Source of the DNA: Bolinopsis microptera | Lineage: Eukaryota; Ctenophora; Tentaculata; Lobata; Bolinopsidae | Assembly: GCF_026151205.1 (NCBI RefSeq) | Contig: NC_087083.1 | Location: 1,862,501-1,926,500 of the forward strand | DNA length: 64,000 nucleotides | Direction: 5' to 3' | Shown: piece by piece, positions 10,248-60,664 of the stretch | Numbering within the stretch: position 1 is the stretch's first letter | Layout of the letters: each line of letters starts with the position of its first letter | Translations under genes and position numbers: made by a program | Notes under the pieces: model-generated | Seen by the model: the letters and a program-made list of their open reading frames with translations, nothing else | Told to the model about the DNA's origin: nothing | The model's database searches: none

Positions 10248-10413
10248 ATCACCGGAGACTCGCAGGCGGCACAAAATATTGCACGCGCGTGCGCATGCAA
10301 TATTTCATATGTCCCCGAGGGCGCTAGCCCGAGGAAGACATATTTTCGTATAGCACGGAGGGCCCATCGGGCCCGAGTGCTACACGATTTTTCCGCCCGC
10401 GGGTCGAGGTGAT
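10248..10413 (+). mobile_element. Module A, 166-bp multi-hairpin element, solitary copy
   Basis: Begins ATCACCGGAGACTCGC and ends GTCGAGGTGAT. Predicted fold: a closing stem (GGGCGG...CCGCCC plus terminal ATCACC/GGTGAT) enclosing three hairpins. These are AATATTGCACGCGC with its complement, ATATGTCC...(GGACATAT in other copies), and TCGTATAGCAC...GTGCTACACGA around GGGCCC-ATC-GGGCCC. This copy is more diverged than those at 30.5-32.8 kb and lacks module E on its right. Confidence 0.9.
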
Positions 10414-18835: not shown

Positions 18836-19022
18836 AATTCAGGGTTAGGGTCAGGGTTAGGGTCAGGGTTAGGGTCAGGGTTAGGGTCAGGGTTAGGGTC
18901 AGGGTTAGGGTCAGGGTTAGGGTCAGGGTTAGGGTCAGGGTTAGGGTCAGGGTCAGGGTTAGGGTTAGGGTTAGGGTCAGGGTCAGGGTCAGGGTCAGGG
19001 TTAGGGTCAGGGTTAGGGTTAC
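18836..19022 (+). repeat. Telomere-like array (TTAGGG and TCAGGG alternating)
   Basis: About 31 hexamers, mostly in GGTTAGGGTCAG 12-mers, ending GGTTAGGGTTACTG. It continues as TTAGGGTTAG after the MULE at 20061. Low-complexity Asn/Asp-Pro frames on the minus strand are artefacts of this array. Confidence 0.95.
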
Positions 19023-19024
19023 TG

Positions 19025-20052
19025 GGTAACACGACTCCTGTCAGCGACATCTGTCCGACAGCGACATCTGTCCGAATCAGGGTACCAGAAAAAACGACAT
19101 TTGTCCGAAATTGTGATCTGATTTCAATACAACACATTTCCAATTAGAGACGTGATCTGAACTGTTAATTTGAATACGTAACATTGCCAATTTGAGATAT
19201 GATCTGAGCCATAGTGTACTACTAGTTTATTTTCGACCTAGGAAGGCAGGCATGAAGCAACTGCGTTGTGAATGGCGAGCTCGTAGTCCATGAGAATGTA
19301 TTGTGGTTGGTAGCCCCAAGGCCTCAGAAGCCCAGGTGTCTATCTCCTCGAACATGTTGCGGTAGAGGGTCGTCGATTTTCCAGGAATGAGTCCTTAGAA
19401 GAGGGGGAGGTGCCAGCCGTCAGGGAAGAGTCCGTGGACTGTGAAGAGCTGATGGAAGAGATTAGGTGCAGATTTGAAGGTACCGTTGGGCGTTGACTAC
19501 GCAATGCTCCGCGTCCACCATATGATCTGCGTTCTTAGGAGTCCCCCAAAGGAATGATCGACGAGTCTGTTCGTCCCATCCAGAGTCCCAGAGCATCATT
19601 GGACTGTTGTCGGTAGAGAGGATTTAGTTTGCAGGAATGGATAGCGTTTCCAGATCTCTCGGGTCTGTTTGCTGCAGATCTGGGTCTGTTTACTGAAGAT
19701 TGGTTGCCATTGTGGATTGCGATAACTGATCTCCATACGGCTGCTATCCTATATGTACTCATGTAGGCTGTGTCCTGTGATGTGATCGACAGCTTGTTAG
19801 TGTACGGCTAGCACAATCCTGTCCTTAAATAGTCAATCACGTATCGATGGATCAGATCTCAATGGATCAAATCAGCATTCGAACAATGGGAGCAACGTCA
19901 CGAAATTACCCGTGAGTTTGTGAAATACGAATGTGAACCGAAATTACAATATGATCCGAAATTCGGACAGATGTCGCCAAAAACGACTCCTGTCCGACAG
20001 CGAAATCTGTCCGAAATCCCCAATTCGGCTGTCGGACAGATGTCGCCCAATC
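19025..20052 (-). mobile_element. Mutator-like (MULE) element, 1028 bp, inserted in the telomere-like array
   Basis: Flanked by a perfect 9-bp duplication GGGTTACTG (19016-19024 and 20053-20061). CGACATCTGTCCGACAG words face inward at both ends (19040-19075; 19975-20045), several per end. A MULE transposase relic lies inside on the minus strand. TSD length and transposase agree. The left end (GGTAACACGAC...) matches a solitary end at 63590-63626. Confidence 0.87.
19225..19640 (-). pseudogene. MULE transposase remnant (several frameshifts and a stop)
   Basis: Read leftward, three frames together give the MULE order: WGTPKNADHMVDAEHCVV; then GTFKSAPNLFHQLFTVHGLF and DGWHLPLF, stop, GLIPGKSTTLYRNMFEEID; then QYILMDYELAIHNAVASC. 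The first catalytic position reads N where MULEs have D (VNGTFK-like rather than VDGTFK); the second D is present in LMDYE. The C-terminal glutamate region is missing. It is a dead transposase and cannot move its own element. Assignment is by motif order and is supported by the 9-bp TSD around the element. Confidence 0.75.
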
Positions 20053-29427: not shown

Positions 29428-29512
29428 ATAACGAAGTTCATAAAAGCATGAAAACAATTATATAATATATATTATATATATACGATGACAATTTAAAATC
29501 GAGGAAACAGCT
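29428..29512. repeat. Repeat containing the unoccupied site of the Penelope-like element
   Basis: Reads taacgaagttcataaaagca ... (TA)n ... tacgatgacaattt. The left half recurs at 58437-58482 and the right half at 60310-60335, on either side of the Penelope-like element. Here the two halves are joined through (TA)n. Confidence 0.75.
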
Positions 29513-29523
29513 GATAATAATGA

Positions 29524-29910
29524 ATGACAATTTGCAATTACCCAAGAAAAATTATAAACCAATCTATCGTTGTAGGTTTACAACCTACCAGGACGCGCGC
29601 CGAGTTGGAACAGATATTTTACGAGTATCACCCGTTATATCTATCGCATCTACAGGCTGAAGACAAAGTGCCGTTCTCCTGTGCTACAGGCACAGCAGAC
29701 TCAGAGCTTTGTTTGATAAGGTACTGTAGATACCTCATGCTGTTCGGCTTTGTATTGGAGATTCCTTACGGCAAGTTGATCGATTATAGACGGCTTCAAG
29801 TCTCCGCCGTACTCCGTTTTATCGATTCGTTAGTTATACGTACATATAATATATATAATAACTTCACAATGTACAGTTGGTATAACCAGCTACCTTACGA
29901 GACATATTAA
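29524..29910 (+). CDS. Unrecognised open frame, 128 codons
   Basis: ATG at 29524 to TAA. Composition in the middle (about residues 15-90) is less AT-rich than the surroundings. It contains TRAELEQIFYEYHPLYLSHL and CATGTADSELCLIRYCRYL; no known domain is recognised and no signal peptide is seen. It is not repeated elsewhere in the window and lies immediately left of the pogo-like end at 29922. It may be chance, an exon, or part of an unrecognised element. No splice sites were chosen. Confidence 0.25.
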   Translation: MTICNYPRKIINQSIVVGLQPTRTRAELEQIFYEYHPLYLSHLQAEDKVPFSCATGTADSELCLIRYCRYLMLFGFVLEIPYGKLIDYRRLQVSAVLRFIDSLVIRTYNIYNNFTMYSWYNQLPYETY

Positions 29911-30099
29911 TGTTCGACATACCTTATCGGACCTTATTTGATTTTGAACGGACATTATCATTATGTGAACGGACATTATGTTGAACGGACGTTAAAATGA
30001 ACGCTGATCGCAGGAGTTCAAAACCATTAAAAATCCGAATTTGTAAATCAATTTTTCAATACAACAAGTAAGAAATTTATCAGTTATTTAGAATATATA

Positions 30100-30500
30100 T
30101 ATTCGCATGTATCCACACTCTATTTACATTACACGTTCAACGTGATATCATTATCAGTGCAGTGTGTACAACACCAACTACACCGATCAATTGCCAATCT
30201 GCGAAACTTTTAATTATTATTATCACTTCGAGATGGTCAGTAGCTCAATTGGTAGAGCAAGATACGCGAAATGTCGAGGTTCTGGGATCATTCCCCAGTT
30301 GTCCCTAGTTTTTCAGAGTTAATCATCACCTATAGACAGCATGAGAGTAGGCCTGGCCATCTCGAAGTGATAATAATAATTAAATGTTTCGCAGATTGGC
30401 AATTGATCGGTGTAGTTGGTGTTGTACACACTGCACTGATAATGATATCACGTTGAACGTGTAATGTAAATAGAGTGTGGATACATGCGAATATATATAT
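30100..30500. mobile_element. Snapback element with about 140-bp arms around a tRNA-like core
   Basis: The left arm (tcgcatgtatccacactcta ... cacttcgagatgg, ending 30237) and right arm (ccatctcgaagtg, from 30358 ... tagagtgtggatacatgcga) are near-perfect inverted complements. Between them is the SINE-like tRNA core. It is inserted into the (TA)n left of module A; the right flank of the array (32760-32790) shows the uninterrupted form. Confidence 0.88.
30236..30357 (+). repeat. tRNA-derived SINE-like sequence, copy 1
   Basis: GTCAGTAGCTCAATTGGTAG fits a pol III A box and forms a D-arm (GCTC...GAGC). CTGGG-atcattc-CCCAG forms a T-arm, but its loop lacks the TTCGA core. No acceptor stem closes, so this is not a functional tRNA. 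The tail includes agacagcatgagagtaggcc. Other copies: 32850 and 33350. Confidence 0.7.
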
Positions 30501-30504
30501 ACAT

Positions 30505-30670
30505 ATCACCGGAGACTCGCGGGCGGAACAAAATATTGCACGCGCACGCGCGTGCAATATTTCATATGTCCCCGAGGGCGCTAGCCCGAGGAGGACATAT
30601 TTTCGTATAGCACGGAGGGCCCATCGGGCCCGAGTGCTATACGATTTTTCCGCCCGCGGGTCGAGGTGAT
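30505..30670 (+). mobile_element. Module A, copy 2 (166 bp)
   Basis: ATCACC...GGTGAT. Closing stem CGCGGGCGGAA / TTCCGCCCGCG. Hairpins: AAATATTGCACGCGC with its complement; ATATGTCC...GGACATAT with inner GGGC-GCTA-GCCC; and TCGTATAGCAC...GTGCTATACGA with inner GGGCCC-ATC-GGGCCC. The same length as all other copies. Confidence 0.93.
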
Positions 30671-30678
30671 GTGGATTA

Positions 30679-31250
30679 TATCCACCAGCGGGCTTATTAC
30701 AGTTAATATATAATTTTATAAATAAACAATGGAGCTTAGTATAAAAGTCAACTCTAGAAAAGGTCACCACTAATTGTTGTAACCATGGTAACACGTCACG
30801 TGTTCAATGTAAGCCAATCATAAAGGGCTGTGTCGTATATAGGGGCTGGAGATGCACTGCATTCCTGGGCCGTGGGAATAATGAATGTAATGTCAGTGAC
30901 GATGAATATCAATAATATAGGGGGATTATAGTGCTGATGTGTATTATGTAGTGTGTTATAATAACTTTGATATAAATCAAAGTATCATGTCATCTGCTCA
31001 CGAGCTGCATGAGCAGCCCTACCGGACACAAAAATAAAATGTATATATATAGTCAGTGTAATAAGGAATTTCACATGGAGACGATACAGAAACTGAAAAT
31101 ATTTTAGAGAACTCCGGGCTATATTGCTACTGGTCAAATTAAATGTCACTTGTTAGCGGGCTATATCATGAGCGGGCTGTAGAGATATCGGGCCCTTTGA
31201 CAGCGGGCTGGTGAGAGCCCGCTATGCGAAAAAGCGCACGCTGGTGGATA
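30679..31250 (+). mobile_element. Module E, copy 1 (572 bp)
   Basis: Inverted ends TATCCACCAGCG / CGCTGGTGGATA. The interior has no open frame, a CACGTCACGTG motif (about 30795), and repeated AGCGGGCT words near the right end (gcgggctatatc, gcgggctgtaga, gcgggctggtgag). Follows module A with eight intervening bases. Confidence 0.9.
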
Positions 31251-31259
31251 TATATACAT

Positions 31260-31425
31260 ATCACCGGAGACTCGCGGGCGGAACAAAATATTGCACGCGC
31301 ACGCGCGTGCAATATTTCATATGTCCCCGAGGGCGCTAGCCCGAGGAGGACATATTTTCGTATAGCACGGAGGGCCCATCGGGCCCGAGTGCTATACGAT
31401 TTTTCCGCCCGCGGGTCGAGGTGAT
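31260..31425 (+). mobile_element. Module A, copy 3 (166 bp)
   Basis: Identical by eye to copy 2; directly follows module E copy 1 (head-to-tail). Confidence 0.93.
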
Positions 31426-31433
31426 GTGGATTA

Positions 31434-32003
31434 TATCCACCAGCGGGCGTATTACAGTTAATATATAATTTTATAAATAAACAATGGAGCTTGTATAAAA
31501 GTCAACTCTAGAAAAGGTCGCCACTAATTGTTGTAACCATGGTAACACGTCACGTGTTCAATGTAAGCCAATCATAAAGGGCTGTGTCGTATATAGGGGC
31601 TGGAGATGCACTGCATTCCTGGGCCGTGGGAATAATGAATGTAATGTCAGTGACGATGAATATCAATAATATAGGGGGATTATAGTGCTGATGTGTATTA
31701 TGTAGTGTGTTATAATAACTTTGATATAAATCAAAGTATCATGTCATCTGCTCACGAGCTGCATGAGCAGCCCTACCGGACACAAAAATAAAATGTATTA
31801 TATAGTCAGTGTAATAAGGAATTTCACATGGAGACGATACAGAAACTGAAAATATTTTAGAGAACTCCGGGCTATATTGCTACTGGTCAAATTAAATGTC
31901 ACTTGTTAGCGGGCTATATCATGAGCGGGCTGTAGAGATATCGGGCCCTTTGACAGCGGGCTGGTGAGAGCCCGCTATGCGAAAAAGCGCACGCTGGTGG
32001 ATA
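31434..32003 (+). mobile_element. Module E, copy 2 (570 bp)
   Basis: Nearly identical to copy 1 with small deletions (gagcttgtataaaag for gagcttagtataaaag; atgtattata for atgtatatata). Confidence 0.9.
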
Positions 32004-32010
32004 TATAATA

Positions 32011-32582
32011 TATCCACCAGCGTGCGCTTTTTCGCATAGCGGGCTCTCACCAGCCCGCTGTCAAAGGGCCCGATATCTCTACAGCCCGCTCATGATATAG
32101 CCCGCTAACAAGTGACATTTAATTTGACCGGTAGCAATATAGCCCGGAGTTCTCTAAAATATTTTCAGTTTCTGTATCGTCTCCATGTGAAATTCCTTAT
32201 TACACTGACTATATATACATTTTATTTTTGTGTCCGGTAGGGCTGCTCATGCAGCTCGTGAGCAGATGACATGATACTTTGATTTATATCAAAGTTATTA
32301 TAACACACTACATAATACACATCAGCACTATAATCCCCCTATATTATTGACATTCATCGTCACTGACATTACATTCATGATTATTCCCACGGCCCAGGAA
32401 TGCAGTGCATCTCCAGCCCCTATATACGACACAGCCCTTTATGATTGGCTTACATTGAACAAGTGACGTGTTACCATGGTTACAACAATTAGTGGCGACC
32501 TTTTCTAGAGTTGACTTTTATACAAACTCCATTGTTTATTTATAAAATTATATATTAACTGTAATACGCCCGCTGGTGGATA
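32011..32582 (-). mobile_element. Module E, copy 3, inverted
   Basis: Mirror of copy 2 across a 7-bp spacer (32004-32010), with a few substitutions. Copies 2 and 3, together with their A modules, form an inverted repeat with arms of about 745 bp. Confidence 0.93.
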
Positions 32583-32590
32583 TAATCCAC

Positions 32591-32756
32591 ATCACCTCGA
32601 CCCGCGGGCGGAAAAATCGTATAGCACTCGGGCCCGATGGGCCCTCCGTGCTATACGAAAATATGTCCTCCTCGGGCTAGCGCCCTCGGGGACATATGAA
32701 ATATTGCACGCGCGTGCGCGTGCAATATTTTGTTCCGCCCGCGAGTCTCCGGTGAT
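32591..32756 (-). mobile_element. Module A, copy 4, inverted (166 bp)
   Basis: Exact complement in layout to copies 2 and 3; closes the right side of the palindrome. Followed by atgtatatatatattctaaataactgataaat, the inverse of the sequence at 30074-30100. Confidence 0.93.
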
Positions 32757-32849
32757 ATGTATATATATATTCTAAATAACTGATAAATGATATTCCACAC
32801 AAAGCATGAAATTGTGCTGTATATGAGTGGTGATTTCGCTCTGGGAATC

Positions 32850-32946
32850 AGGGTCAGTAGCTCAATTGGTAGAGCAAGATACGCGAAATGTCGAGGTTCT
32901 GGGATCATTCCCCATTTGAATCAGGGTCAGTAGCTCAATTGGTATA
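32850..32946 (+). repeat. tRNA-derived SINE-like sequence, copy 2 plus a 20-bp partial repeat
   Basis: GGTCAGTAGCTCAATTGGTA to GGGATCATTCCCC, then 'gaatcagggtcagtagctca' begins again at about 32918 and stops. This suggests a tandem start or template jump. Confidence 0.7.
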
Positions 32947-33345
32947 TACCACGTTACCTACTCAGTTTCCTCTTTTTGCTCATTGACATGATTCAGTGAC
33001 TTCCCCCGCCCTCTATATCTTTAACATGATACCTCCCAGGACCTTAGTATTCCATACCAGACATTTCTTTAACTCCTCGTTACAGCAAGACTAATACAAC
33101 ACGGAGAAGAAAAGAAATAGAGACAAGAATACGACAGCCATGGACTCCTACAAAAGACTAACAGAAGGAACATCCCGGTTTGATCCTTCTGAACTATGCA
33201 TCTTATATCGGTATAGTATTGGTATCTATTTATTACCTATTGTTATTTTTTATCTTTGCTAGTTAATCAGGTTTTTGGGTACCGGGCCATCCTGGTTACC
33301 CTGCTATGGGCCGTTCCCCTGGCTTATGCAGGTCTAGTTTACCCA

Positions 33346-33478
33346 TATATAGCTCAATTGGTAGAGCAAGATACGCGAAATGTCGAGGTTCTGGGATCAT
33401 TCCCCAGTTGTCCCTAGTTTTTCAGAGTTAATCATCACCTATAGACAGCATGAGAGTAGGCCTGGCCATCTCGAAGTG
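33346..33478 (+). repeat. tRNA-derived SINE-like sequence, copy 3
   Basis: Lacks the first bases but keeps the tail to ccatctcgaagtga, the same end as copy 1. Between 32947 and 33345 there is unassigned sequence with a taccgggccatcctggttac stretch and no gene. Confidence 0.7.
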
Positions 33479-34040
33479 AAAGTAAGAAATTGAAAAGCAG
33501 TCGTTGATGTTAGGCATTAAAAATGTTAAATGCTGTGCAGATGAGGTATGAAGGTACGTCGGCCACATCCTTCGGAAGATATCCCGGTTTTCGAATTCTA
33601 AATCATCGAGATGGCTGGTATGGTAGAAGATATCGTCGTTGACATGAACCACCGAAGGTAGCCTTTGCCAAGTTGAGGCTAGAGATAAAGCTCAAGTTGT
33701 ACTTCAGGCATTCTAGTATCGAGAGAGTAGTATAGAGCAGTTGATATCGTTCATTACCCGCTACAACTACGAGTTGGATAAACAACCAGTTATAAGAGAT
33801 CTAGAAGATGTGGAAGTAGATTAATTGTAACTCCAAGGAAACGAACGAGGAACCGCGTACATCAAGAAAGTGCAAAAGTGCCATAGCATGATATTTAGAA
33901 TATTTAAATTTTATAATAACTTCTTTTTCATCGATCCAATGATAGAATGATACATAGTCTAGTCCGATGATACTGATAGAAATTGAAATTATCTGAAATT
34001 AAAAAGTTGTCATATACTGGACAATAAGTTCTCAGTGGAA
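33479..34040. other. Unassigned interior of the composite pogo-like unit
   Basis: No open frame with a recognisable domain on either strand. The DDE region seen at 53.0-53.4 kb is not present here. Confidence 0.4.
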
Positions 34041-58612: not shown

Positions 58613-59265
58613 CTACAAAGTGTAACATTGGAAATGAAATGACACAACTAAAAACGATATGAATATTTTAAAAAAACATAACTCTTGTGCTCCAATGCAA
58701 TAGAAAACATTTAAGATAAATCCAATAATGGAATCCCAAACGGGTCCATGGCATTGAGCCCCAATGGACCGTGGACGTATAGTTCTTAGTTTCTGAATAT
58801 AACGGTGTTCATCCACTTCTAGAGTTCTTGGGCTACTATTACTGAGAATTGACATTTTATAAGCCTGGTTGAAATTGTCACGTTGTTTCATGTTATGAAC
58901 TTCTACAAGGTGTTTACCCAAGCTGAATCCGTCGTCGTTTTCTTCAGGGACAAAAGTATTGTCCGAAATGAGTTTGTAGTAATGGGCGCGATGTTCGTTT
59001 ACTCGTGCCCTGAGGGGCTGCACCGTTCTTCCTACATAACACATGTTACAAAGTTGGCAGCTGAAGAGGTATACAACATTGTAGCTGACACATGTACCAG
59101 ACACTGCTTTGGCTCGCTGTCCATTGACTGTTATTGATGGATGTGGAGATATGATGTTACAGGTACCGCAGTGTCTGCCCCCACATGGTCTTGTGTGAGG
59201 TTGGGTTAAGTCATCCGCAAACTGTTTTGCTTTGACTAACTTCCTTCTAAATGATGTTCCAGTAC
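58613..59265 (-). pseudogene. PLE GIY-YIG endonuclease domain
   Basis: Read leftward from about 59265: FRRKLVKAKQFADDL, TRPCGGRHCGTCNIISPHPS (a CxxxC/CxxC linker finger), SYNVVYLFSCQLCNMCYVGR (the GIY-YIG pair appears as VVYLF...CYVGRT), QPLRARVNEHR, GKHLVEVHN and LEVDEHRYIQKLRTIRP (the conserved Glu/Arg helix region). In PLEs this nuclease nicks the target. It is intact here, but its link to the RT is broken upstream, so it is listed as a pseudogene part. Confidence 0.87.
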
Positions 59266-59520
59266 GTCTGACGAATTTGAAGATAGGGCGTGATGTACCG
59301 GCTCTAGATGATATTGGGGAGCCTGGGGTGTTCCACTTGTATGGGAACCAGATAATCCTGAGAAGCTCCTGGTTCTACTGAGTTCTGGTTCCAATCTTTG
59401 CACCGATTCTACTAACTCTTGATCACTGCCAAATGTTGAAATAACGCGGACTGCTGGTCCTGGAGACTTTGGTACCAGGACATTGCTGTTTGAGTTGTCC
59501 AGTGGTTTGAGACATCTTTA

Positions 59521-60300
59521 AAAGCCTTTGACTTTTTCACTGATGTTATCTACCATAGTTTTAGGGTAGTTGGATTGGAAGAAAAAGGTTTTTAATTCAT
59601 CAATTTGTTTTCGGAGTCTGTCGTTATCATTGATGATTCGCCGGAGTCTCAGGCATGCACTATAGACTATGCTGCTGAATGTATGGTTCGGGTGGTGGGA
59701 ACCGAAGTACAGGTAAGAGCGGGCATCAGTCTCTTCAACATGGAGGTCTGTCTGAAGATCACCTGCGGTGTCAAAACAAAATTTGATGTCTAAGAACGAC
59801 ACATAAACACTGTTATCTTCTATGATGTTCTCATCAATGTGGAGGCCAAGTTCTGCTAGCCTTGAGTTGACAGTCGCGATGAATTTTGAAAACTGTCTTT
59901 TCGTACCATGGAATACTCCACAGCCGTCGTCTATGTATCTTTTGACCGATTTTACAGGTTCCATTAGTTCCGTGTCTGTATAGACTTGCTCACGTATGAC
60001 ATGGTATACTGCTATGTTTGCAAGTTGTACACAGATACTGCCTCCTGTTGGTACTCCTCGTTTCCGTCTGTACCACTCTCCGTTAAATTTGCCTATAGAC
60101 GACTCAAAGCTGAGTTCAACACTTCTTATCAACCACTCCTTGAATTTGGCGGACCATTCTGGTCTCTTTTCTTCCATGGCCACCTTCAAAGCTTGGATTG
60201 TAAGGTGGGGACTCAATGAATCATATAAAGCTTTGTAATCAAATGTGAATGCTTTAATGTTGCTTTTGAGTTCTGTGTCCAGGGTATTGTTGATATATAT
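59521..60300 (-). pseudogene. PLE reverse transcriptase domain (partial)
   Basis: Read leftward: TLDTELKSNIKAFTFDYKAL (first catalytic Asp in FDYKALYDS), ESSIGKFNGEWYRRKRGVPT, GGSICVQLANIAVYHV, catalytic KRYIDDGCGVFHG, SVYVSFLDIKFCFD, and YFGSHHPNHTFSSIVYSACL. This combination, notably GVPTGGS, RYIDDG and the SNHP-like GSHHPNHT block, is PLE-specific. The N-terminal RT motifs are lost, and the stop at 59518-59520 ends the frame before the linker. Confidence 0.9.
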
Positions 60301-60335
60301 ATAATATATATATATACGATGACATGAAATCGAGG

Positions 60336-60664
60336 CCACACCCAATCAACACCGAATTGCTCATACTGGTGTTTGTGAACATGTTAGAGACTCCGTTCAT
60401 GTAACATATTGCAATAGGTCATTTAATCCGGAATATAATCTGAAAAGATGGTGCGAAACGAATTTAAAATGACAAAGTTATCAAGCAATTTGTTTATCTC
60501 GTTAGCAAAATTGAGTGGGTACTCGATGATTACCCAATTACGACACTGTAATTAAGCTCTCTGCACGATTCCCATAATGCGGATCTAACCTCAACCCAAT
60601 CTCAAACACTCAAAGACTGAGGAATCAGGAGGACTCTGTATCCCAGGAACCAACTATTCAGCTC
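60336..60664. other. No gene seen
   Basis: Flank of the PLE target repeat and unassigned sequence. 60657-60664 is the TSD of the next element. Confidence 0.4.

Follow-up and report, generated by a model that had tools for sequence, protein, structure and literature searches.

Direct and Inverted Copies of a Probable Non-Autonomous Crypton-Type Transposon with a Predicted Three-Hairpin End in the Ctenophore Bolinopsis microptera

Introduction

What kind of element leaves behind direct and inverted copies of itself, side by side, with a branched hairpin at one end? This question is raised by a locus in the ctenophore Bolinopsis microptera. It lies in the stretch of 64,000 nucleotides analysed here and called the window (NCBI RefSeq assembly GCF_026151205.1, contig NC_087083.1, positions 1,862,501 to 1,926,500). 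A preliminary description of this DNA had noticed a sequence termed module A, which occurs four times and in one array alternates with a second sequence termed E, and had proposed a mobile element with a branched terminal structure which replicates by a rolling-circle or rolling-hairpin mechanism. The present analysis followed module A through the whole genome. Positions without prefix are those of the window, while C and L are our handles for contigs and loci of the assembly.

The Array and the Element

All four modules are exactly 166 bp long, as described before, and the array order A-E-A-E-E'-A' with direct units of about 755 bp and inverted arms was found again (Table 1). The modules starting at 30505, 31260, and 32591 (reverse strand) are identical to each other, with 755 bp from the first start to the second, and the module at 10248 differs slightly from them. 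The inverted arms join near 32007. If each right end is counted to its ATATA, the gap between the mirror copies is 3 bp (TAA); the spacer of 7 bp given earlier depends on where the ends are placed within the TA run.

Table 1: Features of the array and of related sites in the window.
Feature	Positions	Strand	Basis
Outer TATA core, left end of copy 1	30494..30497	+	Left-end form common to 30 of 30 fetched copies
Module A of copy 1, three-hairpin left end	30505..30670	+	Sequence comparison, fold, covariance model
Inner site GTGGATTATATCCACCAGCG, holds inverted copy of right-end sequence	30671..30690	+	
Body E and right end of copy 1, terminates in GGTGGATATA	30671..31252	+	
Module A of copy 2, head-to-tail with copy 1, single TATA in between	31260..31425	+	
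Body E and right end of copy 2	31426..32005	+	
Body E' and right end of inverted copy 3	32009..32590	-	
Module A' of inverted copy 3	32591..32756	-	
Outer TATA core of copy 3	32764..32767	-	
Solitary module A, 95.8% identical, without usual left TA run, without E	10248..10413	+	
Natural empty site in the opposite arm of the palindrome; the array was inserted into the right arm	30091..30106	-	

The genome was searched in the assembly from which the window comes (264.65 Mb, 232 contigs). Module A was found full length and at 100% identity in at least 40 places, with 40 of 224 candidates scored, and in one more at 96%. Thirty copies were fetched with their surroundings. All of them share one left end, made up of a TA run and then CAT, and carry GTGGATTATATCCACCAGCG directly after A. 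Two kinds of body follow, the short kind being the E of the preliminary description, and the right end GGTGGATATA is present in 26 of the 30 stretches. A and E are parts of one element, mostly of about 755 bp, in which an outer TATA is followed by A, a variable body, and the right end; they are not two ordinary elements which meet only at this locus.

A pattern search allowing up to three mismatches yielded 161 left ends and 147 right ends in the genome and none with reversed control patterns. For pairing, the first 100 left ends were compared with 86 of the first 100 right ends, 12 right ends on C11 and two at C10:15.77 Mb being omitted as they had no listed left partner; the listed ends stop before C12, and the copies of the window itself stand outside these counts. 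A perfect right end lay within 20 kb of 79 of the 100 listed left ends (21 were without one), at 664–772 bp in 50 cases, at 1.2–1.7 kb in 21, and farther away in eight, the nearest right end possibly belonging to a neighbouring copy. An inverted repeat of 31-32 bp (90–97%) links the sequence just inside A with the right end, and the outer ends share no inverted repeat past the TA run.

In a separate observation, an inverted copy of the right terminus was seen just inside the folded module in A-I, the subfamily of the window's module, and by eye in a family called F3 below (window 30671-30690; L144, L145, L055). This arrangement would fit a module attached later, on the outside of an older end of the inverted-repeat type.

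Target Site and Neighbouring Copies

The base preceding TATATATACAT, or its form TACATATACAT, is an A in 68 of 73 distinct flanks and in all seven flanks of the subfamily A-II, compared with a baseline of 37% for the TATA words of the window. Eight of 81 flanks had been excluded as they lie in or beside another copy, and two of those kept (L021, L078) still adjoin element-like sequence. From the 68 flanks the target was concluded to be ATATA, and the right end bears the same ATATA. At three natural empty sites the target has TATA a single time, and the corresponding insert is bordered by it at both ends: this holds for a copy nested in E (ACTTTGATATAAATCAAAG, L020), for a repeat which had been hit twice (L002, L029), and for the palindrome arm of Table 1, where the flank by the third copy is off expectation by about one base. 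Within TA runs the positions of the ends may be shifted.

At least 29 of the 100 listed left ends have another left end no more than 3 kb away. They make up 16 neighbouring pairs, nine direct, five tail-to-tail, and two head-to-head; the right ends of some tail-to-tail pairs are separated by hundreds of bases. In the window one TATA stands at the head-to-tail junction, and 3 bp separate the tail-to-tail copies. The neighbouring copies are explained by separate insertion of a copy beside an earlier one, the TA-rich ends being targets themselves. A dimeric circle is possible as the source of the array, though not needed.

Paired recombinase genes on C6 and C3 had also been considered as inverted dimers. 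This was dropped in view of the 54-bp spacer on C6 and of a perhaps nested insertion on C3. At the C6 locus (L058, C6:3731500-3741499) two gene-bearing A-II copies stand tail-to-tail with arms of 2964 nt at 100% identity and 54 bp of TA-rich sequence between them. Modules of A-I and A-II were also seen head-to-head at L078, L079, and L080, about 17–134 bp apart.

The Gene-Bearing Copies

Relatives with A at their end which do carry a gene, looked for since the preliminary description, exist elsewhere in the genome. A copy of 4.1 kb (L032, C3:14282400-14287300) contains an intron-split gene for a tyrosine recombinase (YR), situated between A and the right end and reading towards A. Its exon 4 scored 29.1 bits with PF00589, for which the cut-off is 27.1, and the exon is above this cut-off in L058 and L045 as well. 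From the eight open reading frames of at least 100 amino acids in L032 three were given to Pfam and the others were read, and the YR was the only enzyme recognised; no Rep/HUH gene was seen in the reading frames of L032 or L034. When the catalytic R-H-R-Y residues were looked for by eye, the motifs FAIRGGTEL, SLRAT, TGH, and DRY could be located, with an arginine where the second box usually has its first histidine. The copies of this gene are broken by two stops in exon 4 of L032, by one stop in exon 3 of both C6 copies, and by the loss of most of exon 1 on C11; this statement covers these four copies, and an intact copy may exist on C13, where the YR was read only in part.

Exon 4 led to seven and exon 3 to 14 places in the genome, which merged to 16 loci. 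A module lies downstream of the YR at ten of them, namely, one A-I, four A-II, one shortened A-II, and two each of the families F2 and F3 described below. Module A or A-II, a subfamily about 84% identical, is 3' of the YR at C3:14283375, on C11, on C13, and in both C6 copies, and the shortened A-II is at C6:5988003. At C3:3821988 a module in fitting orientation stands 3.3 kb off beyond another copy, and at C2:1440702 there is a module remnant of about 60 bp. The 1–1.5 kb read at C7:2707108, C7:11746775, and C4:7001456 contained no module, and C1:14643725 was unread for it.

The domain DUF3504, which is Crypton-derived according to the available part of PMC3212892, stayed below the cut-off for two exons of the A family (17.8 and 18.4 bits) and had no match in the third. 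It was above the cut-off in the YR of F3 (45.4 bits) and in a relative of 412 amino acids at C4:7001456 (48.6 bits), the C-terminal part of which matches exon 4 at 2e-11; the family is therefore called Crypton-type. The last exon encodes a hydrophobic stretch in L032, L058, L045, and L140, with a highest 19-residue mean of 2.04–2.76. Such a tail is visible by eye in an F3 frame of L055, and the relative at C4:7001456 reaches only 0.67. Nine of 18 candidate protein relatives of exon 4 had E values of at most 0.001, all of them unnamed proteins, and eight of these nine (all except P0009) have a hydrophobic tail by eye. Judging from its sequence the tail possibly spans a membrane.

Comparison of the exon 4 piece with solved structures gave XerD-type recombinases at E values of 0.05–0.13, which is not significant. 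Viral or phage relatives were found neither for the array DNA nor for YR exon 3, nor for the hairpin-3 pattern in viral contigs.

Predicted Fold of Module A and Its Conservation

As single-stranded DNA, module A has a predicted folding energy of -66.6 kcal/mol (z = -11.8), and none of 200 shuffled sequences was as low. The fold outlined earlier, a closing stem with three hairpins one of which has GGGCCC-ATC-GGGCCC at its tip, was recovered; the closing stem, previously put at about 11 bp, consists of 6 and 15 bp around a GGA/GA internal loop. For A-II the z value of the fold is -9.0.

An alignment of 49 distinct A sequences showed pairing in 92.1% of the cells paired in the A structure, compared with 31–50% when the partners were slid by one to three columns. 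Two-sided changes between copies, which had been named (as compensatory changes) as a test of the stems, were found: both sides have changed at eight stem pairs, and at four pairs (columns 11-194, 14-191, 16-189, and 71-120) the whole pair is exchanged between the two subfamilies. Three of five covariation measures exceeded all 500 shuffles and the other two were reached by 46-47 of 500; relatedness is not accounted for in these shuffles, and the signal comes largely from a single split between the two subfamilies. Helix 1 is paired in only 65% of the cells. Hairpin 1 is absent in three of the 49 sequences (L033, L035, L097; three places, two of which share a 13-bp flank), so it may be dispensable. 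In hairpins 2 and 3 the GA bases vary little or not at all across the 49 sequences.

Similar Modules in Two Further Families

Two other Crypton families of this genome are predicted to carry an end which folds into the same shape, with hardly any shared sequence. In F2 a three-hairpin module of 167 nt (z = -9.1) lies 3' of a distant YR (C3:3820270), whose exon 3 shows 34% identity, and in F3 another one (z = -10.2) is found downstream of a third YR with 38% identity (C1:13993619, C4:8198677). Both modules are repeated in the genome. The 40 copies scored among 233 candidates for F2 were all 97–100% identical, one of them adjoining a YR at C12:5805024, and for F3, with 40 of 183 candidates scored, all those listed were at 100%.

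A covariance model built from A alone (R1) recognised both families over its full length, with 55.7–64.5 bits at four of four F2 loci and 44.7–46.5 bits at the four of four F3 loci which hold a module. The match is antisense to the YR in or beside the locus (L140, L141, L054, L055), as it is for A; the opposite strand yielded 20–25 bits, and a model of the sequence only gave 7.8–8.8 bits for F2 and 5.0–5.8 bits for F3. Among 24 loci searched, foldback DNA reached 35.3 bits on the strand opposite an A-II copy, a match of 36.5 bits in the same search being a cut-off true A; the E-E' palindrome of the window reached 32.5 bits. As foldback DNA attains such scores, bit scores were relied on and not E-values.

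The internal loops of the hairpins recur in detail. In hairpin 2, C[GA]G faces C[GA]G in A-I, A-II, F2, and F3 (positions 69, 69, 73, and 71). In hairpin 3 one side reads, in the same order, C[GGA]G, C[GGA]G, C[GAG]G, and C[GA]A (positions 109, 109, 111, and 113), and the facing side C[GA]G, C[GA]G, C[GA]G, and T[GA]G. When a longer stretch is folded, the outer TA-rich core pairs with an inner one in the minimum-energy structure of all four modules, with predicted pair probabilities at this foot of mostly 0.7–0.94 for F2 and F3, about 0.4 for A-I, and about 0.2 for A-II.

A Proposed Mechanism and Its Alternatives

With a probability of roughly 0.7, the array is made up of one non-autonomous Crypton-type transposon in three copies, of which two are direct and one is inverted, and the element probably depends on a Crypton-type recombinase encoded elsewhere in the same genome. 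In the mechanism we propose, the YR supplied in trans would excise the element as a circle, the junction of which (GGTGGATATATATACATATCACC) would hold one core, and this core would recombine with an ATATA target. The TA-rich ends of the element would offer ready targets, and as TATA is self-complementary, direct and inverted neighbours would accumulate. Module A, being kept in gene-less copies, terminal, found again with three diverged YRs, and conserved in its unpaired GA bases, is inferred to be a conserved folded attachment site acting in cis. Its foot would pair the outer terminal TATA with the inner TATA, such that a folded strand or a cruciform would present the core as a duplex; the YR may use a folded strand, a cruciform, or the ordinary duplex.

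The branched terminal structure and the mobile nature of the element assumed in the preliminary description are retained; its rolling-circle or rolling-hairpin origin is not supported. According to that idea A would be the terminal replication hairpin of a Helitron/Helentron or parvovirus-like element and the array a concatemer, which would suit the branched hairpin at one end, the subterminal inverted repeats, and the direct and inverted neighbours. However, the gene which lies between these same ends encodes a YR, TATA stands on both sides of the insert, and the neighbours fit separate insertions, which makes this origin very improbable. Somewhat less remote, and still improbable, is a miniature inverted-repeat element moved by a DDE transposase, with TATA as target duplication and the YR of L032 as a passenger. 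Many short copies with conserved ends and a flanking TATA resembling a 4-bp target duplication could be read in this way, but no DDE gene was seen among the reading frames of L032 and L034 (which were read, three of L032 also in Pfam), the combination of YR and module recurs in A-II and two other families, and the target preference reaches the A which the right end also bears.

Other explanations concern what the fold of A means. GA/GA loops are stable in RNA too and the module follows the YR gene in every family, so that A might function as an RNA structure, for instance within the 3' region of the YR transcript, its terminal position being secondary. This seems unlikely as A is kept letter for letter without a YR gene (40 of 40 scored candidates at 100%), the Rfam families matched there are all under their cut-off, and the terminal core sits at the foot of A. 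A stronger contender, though we hold it to be less probable than the folded site, is that A acts as an ordinary duplex and its stems are inverted sites at which either the YR or a host protein binds. Palindrome-correcting mutation is able to produce paired changes, as co-evolving half-sites would, and the stems could thus have changed on both sides in the absence of any folding. Mismatched loops would be removed by correction of this kind, but the GA bases are nearly invariant and recur in two families of divergent sequence, and the whole three-hairpin layout is retained. Inverted sites are usual for YRs, as stated in the available part of PMC3212892, which fits the duplex explanation.

Coming back to the folded attachment site, a wider generalisation may be considered, tentative as it is and in our estimate rather unlikely to hold in full. 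The three families could represent an animal Crypton clade which would move by means of a folded single-stranded or cruciform three-hairpin site of about 170 nt, with GA/GA internal loops kept in two hairpins and the terminal TATA core duplexed at the foot, and which would encode a YR with a membrane tail. Such a site would be a counterpart of attC with a separate origin.

Relation to Known Systems

The attC site of bacterial integrons is a YR site which folds in such a way that the core becomes a duplex at the foot of the structure, a single hairpin with boxes. It shares with the present element the YR system and, as predicted, a fold with the core paired at the foot; here the predicted structure is a three-hairpin junction at the end of a eukaryotic transposon. 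Helitrons and Helentrons have hairpins near their ends, inverted repeats within the ends, and tandem copies, all of which are found here, but they encode a Rep/HUH-helicase and insert without target duplication. The element described here is associated with a YR gene, and TATA flanks its insertions at either end and occurs a single time in the empty sites.

Animal Cryptons of the groups A and I resemble the present element in that the YR is the sole recognised enzyme and many non-autonomous derivatives exist (Kojima and Jurka 2011, PMC3212892, in the part available). The available text of PMC3212892 describes animal Cryptons as having neither terminal repeats nor a C-terminal domain, and fungal ones as having short direct repeats of 4–6 bp at their ends. 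A resemblance to the animal Cryptons may also lie in DUF3504-related sequence within the same gene group, and short end repeats, here TATA on both sides, are a feature shared with the fungal Cryptons; TATA/ATATA on both sides, the 166-nt three-hairpin end, and the hydrophobic tail of the YR set the element apart from animal Cryptons in that account. The SE elements of Vibrio likewise encode a YR and circularize, with circles of one specific strand (PMC9345347, in the part available); circles are reported there and postulated here, and those elements are bacterial and have no known sequence relationship to the present one.

A description of a folded Crypton end was not found in the literature searched, which included the available parts of PMC3212892 and PMC4157794. 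As the fold can be detected by one covariance model without sequence similarity, the model could be used to map Crypton ends and gene-less copies elsewhere, and the testable question arises whether a eukaryotic tyrosine recombinase acts on folded DNA. Crypton recombinases have been domesticated into animal genes (PMC3212892, in the part available), and so the way in which YRs read DNA is of wider interest.

Other Features of the Window

A known RNA element was considered and rejected: Rfam searches at E values up to 0.5 gave 11 and 16 matches, all under the family cut-off, which fall on long palindromes and TA runs, three of them being tRNA-like stretches. One of these stretches scored 28.9 bits with the Rfam tRNA family, the cut-off being 29. 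It is situated inside a palindrome at 30093-30500 with arms of 148 nt at 99% identity, the right arm of which contains the array. ARAGORN reported no tRNA in 29500-34000; related tRNA-like copies lie at 32851 and 33349. On the reverse strand at 58613-60345 two open reading frames resemble, by eye only, two domains of a Penelope-like retroelement. Arrays of a TTAGGG/TCAGGG-like 12-bp unit occur at 18841-19026 of the window and at 6215-6500 of L057.
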